From contig DAOURL010000003.1 in the NCBI GenBank assembly GCA_030625165.1, positions 1-38,707 on the forward strand: a stretch of 38,707 nucleotides of DNA, read 5' to 3'. Positions within the stretch are counted from its first letter, which is position 1, and each line of letters starts with the position of its first letter. Below the pieces are notes generated by a model. The model was not told where the DNA came from. It saw only the letters and a list, made by a program, of their open reading frames with translations, and did not search any database. Of this stretch, positions 32,804 through 35,391 are shown piece after piece. The DNA comes from Methanosarcinales archaeon. GTDB taxonomy: Archaea; Halobacteriota; Methanosarcinia; Methanosarcinales; Methanogasteraceae. Both the position numbers and the translations under genes were made by a program.

Positions 32804-32850
32804 TCACCCCGGATCTGGCTTTGGGTCTGGCTCATTACAGGCACGCATAC

Positions 32851-32922
32851 ACAACTGATATGGTTGTATCACAAATTACAACTTTTACGGTTGTATAATA
32901 GATTACAACCAACACAGGTTGT
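32851..32922 (+). promoter_or_regulatory. Iterated ACAAC-N7-GTTGT operator array before the satD-like gene
   Basis: Six half-sites alternate in direction: ACAAC at 32851, 32878 and 32905, exactly 27 nt apart, each followed by GTTGT at 32863, 32890 and 32918 (spacers 7, 7 and 8). Read the other way, the pairs also form GGTTGTA-N-TTACAAC palindromes (32862-32882, 32889-32910). The last half-site touches the TATA box. This is the layout of an operator bound cooperatively by a dimeric HTH protein, most simply the neighbouring gene product acting on its own promoter. Confidence 0.8.
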
Positions 32923-32931
32923 TTTTATATG
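32921..32931 (+). promoter_or_regulatory. TATA box of the satD-like operon
   Basis: GTTTTTATATG is centred about 28 nt before the ATG at 32955, with no clear ribosome site, so the mRNA is probably leaderless. The TATA box abuts the last operator half-site. Confidence 0.55.
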
Positions 32932-32954
32932 CGATGGCTGACATAGTATGAACT

Positions 32955-33611
32955 ATGGAACAGAAGCTCTACGTGCTGTTGGGCGATGTTGTCCAATCCC
33001 GCCGGATAAGCGATCGGGAGGATTTTCAAAACAGAGTTGAGGAAACCTGTAAAAAAATAAACGCCCTGTATGCAGAGGATATGTACGCAGATTTCAAAAT
33101 TCTAAAAGGGATCGACGAGATAGGAGGCGTGTTATCGGGTATGTCGAGCGCTTATGGGATTATCGCCACCATATCAGAAGAACTTCACCCAAATTCAATG
33201 CGTTTCGCGCTGGTCTTTGATTACATCGATACTGCCATAGAAACCAGAAACGTAACAAAGATGGACGGCTCCGCATTTCACAAGGCATCGGACATGTTAC
33301 ATAGACTCAAAAGCTCAAAATTGATCTTCGACATGTCTGTCGGCGACACGACAATCGATACCGCAATAGCCGGACAGGTCAATTTAATTTTGCTGCTGAA
33401 GCGAAATTGGTCTGCACGACAGCATCAGGTAGTCAGGGAATATGAACGAACTAAAAATCAATCCGCTGTGGCAGAAAACTTGGGAATAACCCAGCAAGCA
33501 GTCTCAAAAATACTTAACCGTTCGATGTGGAAGGAGATCAAGACAATTGAAGAAAATTTAAGTCTTGTGCTGCGTAATTACCATCAAGCATCGGGAACGG
33601 GATGTAGATGA
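32955..33611 (+). CDS. SatD-like protein with C-terminal helix-turn-helix
   Basis: The 218-residue protein starts LYVLLGDVVQSRRISDREDF, the SatD-family N-terminus. Mid-protein blocks are DFKILKGIDEIGGVLSGMSS near residue 50 and MRFALVFDYIDTAI near 85. The end carries a helix-turn-helix, QVVREYERTKNQSAVAENLG then ITQQAVSKILNRS, near 155-190, like sigma-70 region 4 or Sau3AI-type HTH units. SatD was named from a streptococcal acid-tolerance locus; its biochemical role is unresolved. The HTH makes a DNA-binding role likely, and the operator array at 32851-32922 is the obvious target. The stop overlaps the next ATG by 4 nt. Confidence 0.8.
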   Translation: MEQKLYVLLGDVVQSRRISDREDFQNRVEETCKKINALYAEDMYADFKILKGIDEIGGVLSGMSSAYGIIATISEELHPNSMRFALVFDYIDTAIETRNVTKMDGSAFHKASDMLHRLKSSKLIFDMSVGDTTIDTAIAGQVNLILLLKRNWSARQHQVVREYERTKNQSAVAENLGITQQAVSKILNRSMWKEIKTIEENLSLVLRNYHQASGTGCR

Positions 33612-33973
33612 TGATCGAACACATAAACCCAACCGAAACAGCCATCCTTGTAGGCGGATATGTCGTTTTACTTGCTACAAGCGGGATCGTAGTGAACTTC
33701 ATCCTGTCTGATATCTCAGGAGAACCCATAAGCCGAAAAATTGGCAAGGAAGCGCGTGATACTGGTTTCATAATCGGGAAATGTGAAAACCTGTTGATAC
33801 TTACCTTTGTGATTCTGGACGCATATACAGCGATGTCGGTGATATTCGCTGCAAAAACCATAGTTCGCAGAGACGATATGGCTAAAAATTCATTATTCTT
33901 TCTTGCAGGGACGATGGTTAATGTCACTTATTCGCTGATGGTTGGCTTAATTATAAAACTGCTTATATGTTAA
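33608..33973 (+). CDS. Small membrane protein, partner of the SatD-like protein
   Basis: This 121-residue protein has three or four hydrophobic segments: ETAILVGGYVVLLATSGIVV near the start, LLILTFVILDAYTAMSVIFA near residue 65, and SLFFLAGTMVNVTYSLMVGL then IIKLLI at the end. Between them is a basic loop with SRKIGKEARDTGFIIGKCEN. The pattern GKxEN...LDAYTAMSVIFAAKTIVR resembles the C-terminal part of DUF3307-type membrane proteins that neighbour satD genes in bacteria, here alone as a short gene. It overlaps the satD-like gene by 4 nt (ATGA), so both are made together. Function unknown; I infer a membrane effector or sensor. Confidence 0.72.
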   Translation: MMIEHINPTETAILVGGYVVLLATSGIVVNFILSDISGEPISRKIGKEARDTGFIIGKCENLLILTFVILDAYTAMSVIFAAKTIVRRDDMAKNSLFFLAGTMVNVTYSLMVGLIIKLLIC

Positions 33974-33987
33974 CTGGGACGCCGCCC

Positions 33988-35391
33988 TCACAGGCACGCA
34001 TCGACAAACGCCTCAGCAAACCGCAGATACGAGCACGCGTGAAGATGCGCATATCCTGCAAGCGTGTTCTCGACCATGATCCCGTCCCAGCCATCTTTGA
34101 TCCCGACCCCCCGCGTAAGCCGGATCGCAAAGGTGGCATCGCCGATATCCGTGACCGACGAATGATGGAACTCATGCCCCCTGAATGAGTCGCCGACTCC
34201 CCCGATCGGCGTATCCGTCGTGAACGAGCCGATATTGTAACTCACGACCTTGCCGCCCATCTCAACCGTGGCAGGGATTGCGCCGACCATCTCGAATGCC
34301 TCGCCAGACATCCCGTGCATGCCGCTCTTTGTGACTATCTGCTCTGCAAGATACATCAGCCCGCCGCACTCGCCGTATATCGGCATGCCGCCTGCCGATG
34401 CCTTTCGTATGCCCTGCCGGATGCGCTTGTTCGCTTCGAGTTCCTTTGCAAAGAGTTCGGGATAGCCGCCGCCTATGTAGATTCCGTCCACGTCGGGGAG
34501 CGTTCTGTCATGGAGCGGACTGAAATAGACGATATCTGCGCCATGCAACCTCAGAAGATCAAGGTTATCCGCATAATAGAAATTAAACGCCTCGTCAAGC
34601 GCAACACCGATCCTGATCTTCGCCCTGCCGCCGGCATCACCTCCCGCAAAGATTGAGGGTTCTCCGACATCGAGCGGTTCAGCCGTCTCTGCGATATCGG
34701 TCAGCTGCTCGAGGTCGATGTTTTCTGAAACGATCTCTGTTATCCTGGAGATGCGCTCCCTGAATTCAGGAGACTGCCTGCCCTCATTCACAGGAACCAG
34801 ACCCAGATGCCGCATCGTAAGCCCCATGGCATCGTCTCTCGGAACCGTGCCGATGACAGGGATGCCGGTGTAGTGCTCGATAGCGGATACCGCCTTTTCA
34901 GCGTGTCTTCTGCTTCCGATCTTATTGAGGATCACGCCTCTGATATCAACCGCAGGATCAAACGCCCTGTAGCCCATGACCACTGCGGCTGCGCTTCGTG
35001 TGATGCTCCTCGCATCGATTAGTAGGATCACAGGACATTTCAGTGCCTTTGCGACCTGAGCCGTGCTTCCAAGATCGCTCAACCCCTCGAATCCTTCGTA
35101 TAGCCCCCGAACTCCCTCGATGATGGCTAAATCAGCATTCCTCTCGTCCAGTGCATGGGAGAACGTCTCGAGCACAGCGTCTTCTGTCATCAGATAGCCG
35201 TCGAGATTCCTGCACCGATTTTTGCATGCGAGTGTGTGGTAACTCGGATCGATGTAATCGAGACCTACCTTAAACGGCTGCACGTCCAGATGCTTGCTAA
35301 GCGCAGCCATGATCCCGGTGCAGACCGTGGTCTTTCCTGCAGACGACCGATCAGCAGCGATGAGCACTCTGGGGGTGTTATTTTGTGTCAT
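33988..35391 (-). CDS. cfbB: Cobyrinate / Ni-sirohydrochlorin a,c-diamide synthase
   Basis: The enzyme uses ATP and glutamine to amidate the a and c side chains of cobyrinate (CbiA, vitamin B12 route) or Ni-sirohydrochlorin (CfbB, coenzyme F430 route). The two cannot be separated from sequence alone. From ATG 35391 it has 467 residues. Landmarks are the P-loop RSSAGKTTVCTGIMAALSKH near residue 17, KVGLDYIDPSYHTLA near 40, IIEGVRGLYEG near 90, and the class I glutaminase half with YIGGGYPELFAKELEANKRI, the nucleophile Cys in YGECGGLMYLAEQI near 340, and the His in FRGHEFHHSSV near 400. It is convergent with the satD-membrane cassette. In a methanogen-like genome CfbB is the favoured role. Confidence 0.9.
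   Translation of the reverse strand: MTQNNTPRVLIAADRSSAGKTTVCTGIMAALSKHLDVQPFKVGLDYIDPSYHTLACKNRCRNLDGYLMTEDAVLETFSHALDERNADLAIIEGVRGLYEGFEGLSDLGSTAQVAKALKCPVILLIDARSITRSAAAVVMGYRAFDPAVDIRGVILNKIGSRRHAEKAVSAIEHYTGIPVIGTVPRDDAMGLTMRHLGLVPVNEGRQSPEFRERISRITEIVSENIDLEQLTDIAETAEPLDVGEPSIFAGGDAGGRAKIRIGVALDEAFNFYYADNLDLLRLHGADIVYFSPLHDRTLPDVDGIYIGGGYPELFAKELEANKRIRQGIRKASAGGMPIYGECGGLMYLAEQIVTKSGMHGMSGEAFEMVGAIPATVEMGGKVVSYNIGSFTTDTPIGGVGDSFRGHEFHHSSVTDIGDATFAIRLTRGVGIKDGWDGIMVENTLAGYAHLHACSYLRFAEAFVDACL

Follow-up and report, generated by a model that had tools for sequence, protein, structure and literature searches.

The window analysed here, a 38,707-nt stretch of DNA from a methane-oxidising Methanosarcinales archaeon, carries a compact cassette in which an operator array precedes satD and a gene for a small membrane protein. 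We consider it probable, at roughly 0.78, that SatD is a one-component regulator that represses its own operon, with an N-terminal part that would sense a nucleotide and the membrane protein as its output. Many archaea and some bacteria share this layout, and it suggests what a protein family so far without a role might do. The features of the locus, in window coordinates, are as follows.

32837–32848, no strand assigned: left one of the two 12-bp direct repeats, ACAGGCACGCAT, that bracket the cassette
32849–34001, forward strand: inserted cassette of 1153 bp, made up of array, satD, membrane gene and right repeat
32851–32867, no strand assigned: operator site 1, ACAAC-N7-GTTGT, kept in L003 and L004
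32878–32894, no strand assigned: operator site 2, ACAAC-N7-GTTGT
32905–32922, no strand assigned: operator site 3, ACAACC-N6-GGTTGT, adjoining the TATA box
32924–32931, forward strand: TATA-like box, TTTATATG, recognised from its sequence, 24 nt 5' of the satD ATG (32955)
32955–33611, forward strand: satD (PF16264), predicted N-terminal nucleotidyl-cyclase-fold domain and C-terminal helix-turn-helix (HTH)
33608–33973, forward strand: membrane protein of 121 aa with three transmembrane helices, homologous to the C-terminal half of DUF3307
33990–34001, no strand assigned: right one of these two repeats, again ACAGGCACGCAT

Three palindromic sites are observed in the window where 0.16 are expected, and none of 100 shuffles reaches three. 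A preliminary description of this DNA had placed like half-sites exactly 27 nt apart. This is correct for ACAAC, which starts at 32851, 32878 and 32905, and fails for the final step of GTTGT (starts 32863, 32890 and 32918), which measures 28 nt because the third ACAAC/GTTGT spacer is 8 nt long instead of the 7 found elsewhere, displacing the last GTTGT by one base. Its other structural claims were borne out: the array does run up to the TATA box of an operon of two genes, with site 3 abutting TTTATATG; the first gene is SatD-like with a C-terminal HTH; and the second encodes a short membrane protein whose reading frame opens within the satD stop codon, at 33608, giving a 4-nt overlap. The 24 nt between TATA box and ATG fit a leaderless or nearly leaderless satD mRNA from an archaeal promoter, a start read from the spacing. 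Within this genome (2.3 Mb, 86% complete) the array occurs only at the satD locus, and matches to the individual site pattern are about as frequent genome-wide as those to a reversed control pattern (9 versus 8 per strand).

Arrays of the same type stand before satD in other genomes. They are found in the close relatives L003 and L004, upstream of orthologues with 58–67% identity in other genomes of the order (L005, L007 and L008), and upstream of haloarchaeal-type orthologues with 38–41% identity (L048, L049, L054, L056, L068 and L069). The same half-sites precede orthologues of 38–67% identity that occupy different genomic positions, within the order as well as among haloarchaea and Thermoplasmatota, and the form of site 3 is identical in haloarchaea, Acidobacteria and Ignavibacterium. 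For a wider survey, each region was given a four-half-site score and compared with 100 dinucleotide shuffles at a threshold of p ≤ 0.01; this score replaced an earlier detector (6-mer arms, fixed identity) that had missed several arrays. Tandem palindromes, 26–30 nt apart, were detected upstream of satD in 25 of 72 loci and just after satD in 11 of 69 regions, and control windows inside satD gave none in 72, counts that are not independent because the loci are related. The usual build consists of two 6-bp half-sites about 6 bp apart, recurring every 27–29 bp. Half-sites read ACAACC in the window type, in Acidobacteria (L072) and in Ignavibacterium (L081), ACAAGG in Actinobacteria, and ATAAGG, ATAACC, TTCGGC, TAAAGC or TGAACT in other clades. 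The repeats sought at homologous loci are therefore present at many of them; about half of the sampled loci, mostly archaea of family f10 (L023–L029, L040 and L042–L046, for example), have no array detectable by the four-half-site test, although the paired genes and the HTH are retained there. In several clades the array follows satD and precedes the membrane gene, which marks the latter as the regulated target.

Does SatD itself recognise these sites? The HTH spans approximately residues 154–189, with a recognition helix at 180–189 and Q181 as putative specificity residue. Across loci, the more two recognition helices differ, the more their operators do (r 0.72), and the correlation persists after correction for the distance between N-terminal domains (partial r 0.65, permutation p 2e-4); with the recognition helix removed, the partial correlation of operators with the N-terminal domain is 0.15. 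The half-sites entering these correlations were read by eye. An automatic count gave ACAA at 20 and ATAA at none of the loci with Gln181, as against ATAA at 8 and ACAA at 1 of those with Ser, Ala or Pro at this position (Fisher p 2e-6). The residue-181 switch is seen in window-type SatD proteins of 40–41% identity (L050, L055), in DUF3307-type loci (L011–L013, L059, L061) and in a bacterium (L073), and its occurrence in such distant branches makes a single inherited event unlikely. This covariation is the strongest evidence that SatD is the predicted binder. As the half-sites follow the recognition helix, SatD very probably binds the array sites and controls its membrane partner. Together with the arrays at homologous loci, the covariation gives good computational support to the initial proposal that SatD autoregulates an operon shared with a membrane gene.

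The pairing of the two genes is widespread in archaea and also bacterial, and so is not limited to one archaeon. SatD is present in 12 of 60 relatives and in 52 of 394 genomes of the phylum; the pair occurs in the same archaeal order, in haloarchaea, in Thermoplasmatota and in several bacteria, including Cellulomonas, Arthrobacter, Calditrichaeota and Ignavibacterium. By automatic recognition, a partner of the DUF3307 C-terminal family lies directly downstream of satD in 64 of 76 non-window loci; of the other 12, several are explained by a contig end or a frameshift, and the partner in L073 was missed by the pattern. BLAST among the neighbours of distinct loci showed that only satD and its membrane partner recur, the exceptions being two near-identical loci and a few paralogues shared by chance.

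Several loci depart from this layout. SatD is fused to TPR repeats in L059 (864–2597) and to HEAT repeats in L060 (939–2645), each followed by a DUF3307-type gene, and these fusions may provide an additional input that senses proteins. Genomes of the same family also contain a distant second lineage of satD (L009, L010 and L015; about 28–31% identity), in which repeats of the GAACT type separate satD from the membrane gene and do not lie upstream. One genome, G004, carries both lineages, and its satD at L003 has a TAA seven codons ahead of the usual end, probably a harmless shortening. In L007 and L021 satD is intact and the membrane gene has an internal deletion or truncation.

The window membrane protein matches no Pfam family, PF11750 included. 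A profile of the small satD-side membrane proteins nevertheless aligns by hhalign with the C-terminal half of satD-side DUF3307 proteins (probability 99.8, E 3e-28), which identifies the window protein as the C-terminal module of DUF3307-type partners standing alone. The partners measure between 118 and 285 aa and share a conserved polar signature, and residues G53, G57, E60, A81, K83, R87, G101 and T102 are invariant from archaea to Actinobacteria. AlphaFold2 predicts three long helices and some short ones for the window protein, almost wholly membrane helices; the model contains no soluble nucleotide-binding domain, and no meaningful match was found in a search for its structural relatives.

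The extent of the cassette is defined by sister genomes. Of the ANME-2 genomes of the same genus, those represented by L111, L112 and L116 have a pheT-cbiA junction without it, and the window, L113 and L114 contain it. At the empty site pheT adjoins the cobyrinate-synthase-like gene with a single copy of ACAGGCA(C/T)GCAT between them, in L116 with one change. This 12-bp repeat has only two copies in the window, those that bracket the cassette. Exact empty site and bracketing repeats together show that the cassette holds no more than the array, satD and the membrane gene; no transposase is present. It was therefore either acquired through an insertion or removed when the two repeats recombined. 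In L113, the same locus as L004 and L014, both bracketing repeats read ACAGGCATGCAT, as against ACAGGCACGCAT twice in the window, a difference that reflects either separate insertions or conversion between copies.

What, then, might SatD sense? Against PF16264 the window protein scores 70.7 bits (cut-off 29), its residues 8–192 corresponding to model positions 4–197 of 211; judging from this profile, the C-terminal HTH is part of the family model and so no peculiarity of the window locus. Its closest named relative (L065) belongs to an ANME-2 cluster archaeon. An AlphaFold2 model built with 14 homologues reaches a pLDDT of 92.6, and Foldseek against the PDB places class III adenylyl cyclases at the top (probability 1.00, E 2.1e-4), followed by guanylyl cyclases, Cas10, OptS/mCpol and GGDEF domains, with moderate TM-scores of 0.41 normalised by query and up to 0.62 by target. 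The model suggests that the N-terminus, approximately residues 1–130, has a nucleotidyl-cyclase (palm) fold with D11 and D54 as putative metal ligands; both aspartates are invariant in alignments of 32 and 15 sequences. The fold assignment rests on the predicted model; four archaeal class III cyclases align only weakly in hhalign (P 0.018), although the alignment does pair D11 and D54 with the metal aspartates. Against solved structures, the sequence profile matches mainly through the HTH, its cyclase match being weak (1ybt, E 0.28), and a Pfam profile search gave no PF00211 match. Of the class III transition-state Asn/Arg, the Asn lacks conservation, with His109 (in the window type) or Arg in its place, at a position judged by eye where the alignment is uncertain. 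With the metal aspartates kept and the catalytic Asn not conserved, we infer a nucleotide-binding sensor and not a classical cyclase, and the model thus suggests that SatD is a nucleotide-responsive one-component regulator.

These elements can be combined into one mechanism. The C-terminal HTH, probably as a dimer, would bind the 17–18-bp palindromes, which stand in tandem at intervals of 27–29 bp. As site 3 adjoins the TATA box, SatD bound there most likely blocks TBP or RNA polymerase, and would so repress, rather than activate, satD together with the membrane gene transcribed along with it. For the N-terminal domain the most likely role is that of a metal-nucleotide sensor, by which DNA binding is either released or tightened. 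The three-helix membrane protein, a minimal DUF3307 C-terminal module, would be the regulated output.

The predicted fold also invites another interpretation: SatD could be an active synthase whose nucleotide messenger gates the membrane protein, as in Pycsar and Panoptes, with DNA binding as a second role. The invariant D11 and D54 sit like the catalytic pair Asp6/Asp57 of OptS (PMC12657218), mCpol/OptS is among the Foldseek matches, the operon likewise joins a cyclase fold and a membrane protein in two genes, and the partner shows a very weak similarity to PycTM (E 0.019). We nonetheless regard this as unlikely, since the partner, unlike OptE, is nearly all membrane helices without a soluble nucleotide-binding domain, His109 or Arg replaces the class III catalytic Asn, defence neighbours are absent, and the operator arrays indicate transcription control. 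Similarly improbable is the broader idea that SatD is a transcription factor whose cyclase-fold domain is catalytic and fused to the DNA-binding domain, so that it makes (or turns over) a nucleotide, responds to it and switches a minimal membrane effector throughout archaea and bacteria. The suggestion of a defence cassette, made at the outset, is not supported: PADLOC gave no real match for either gene (best E 0.034 for PtuB and 0.019 for PycTM, the Panoptes and Pycsar synthase and effector models being unmatched), and 56 neighbours yielded scattered matches only, with no recurring defence genes. Four IMG/VR scans and a search of a phage collection found no relatives either, which likewise leaves a viral origin without support.

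Small overlapping genes behind an autoregulatory-looking array could also form an addiction pair of the toxin-antitoxin kind, with the membrane protein as toxin and SatD as autorepressing antitoxin. Clean presence and absence among sister genomes with flanking direct repeats would fit, as would the broken partners beside intact satD in L007 and L021. Against this stand the length range and polar signature of the partners, the arrays placed solely before the partner in several clades, and the SatD model, which has no unstructured antitoxin-like segment. The phage collection also gave no match, and among 72,556 plasmid records there were just 3 matches, all haloarchaeal. An addiction pair seems quite unlikely to us; it and messenger synthesis are possible but weaker readings than autoregulation. 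It is very improbable that another regulator binds the array and SatD is merely located behind it. Binding by SatD is a prediction, and the window genome presumably encodes many further HTH proteins; however, the array is confined to the satD locus in this genome, and in archaea and bacteria alike the half-site can be predicted from the recognition helix of SatD itself.

If SatD is an autoregulator, two widespread families without a settled role, SatD and DUF3307, become a testable regulator-target pair. The predictions gained are binding sites, residue Q181 as a switch of site preference, a nucleotide-binding sensor and a defined output gene. Archaea and bacteria would have one set of regulator and operators in common, and the exact empty site in sister ANME-2 genomes presents the two-gene cassette as recently gained or lost. 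No published account of SatD operators or of a SatD cyclase fold was found in the literature searched.

Among known systems, the SatD family (PF16264) takes its name from the Streptococcus mutans sat operon, and a passage of PMC10326533, citing Kremer 2001, traces its acid-tolerance annotation to that operon. The window protein is a full-length match to the family profile including the HTH, and an adjoining membrane-protein gene is typical of the sampled loci. DUF3307 (PF11750) genes also lie beside satD; their C-terminal half is homologous to the window membrane protein, which is without the N-terminal PF11750 domain. With class III nucleotidyl cyclases (Rv1900c CHD, 1YBT/1YBU), GGDEF domains, mCpol/OptS and Cas10, SatD shares the predicted fold and the two metal aspartates; it differs from class III cyclases in that the catalytic Asn is not conserved, in its fusion to an HTH and in the missing PF00211 match. 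The Rv2242 fragment 9F80 and BAD_0249 (3ONQ), which we take to be regulators combining a cyclase-like domain with a DNA-binding domain, are among the structural matches, with a high rmsd of about 15 A over the whole chain and no sequence similarity shown; their operators are not known to be related to those of SatD. Panoptes (OptS/OptE) and Pycsar resemble the satD pair as two-gene operons of a palm- or cyclase-fold protein and a membrane protein; the SatD partner differs from theirs in having no soluble nucleotide-binding domain, and SatD itself in its HTH and its operators.
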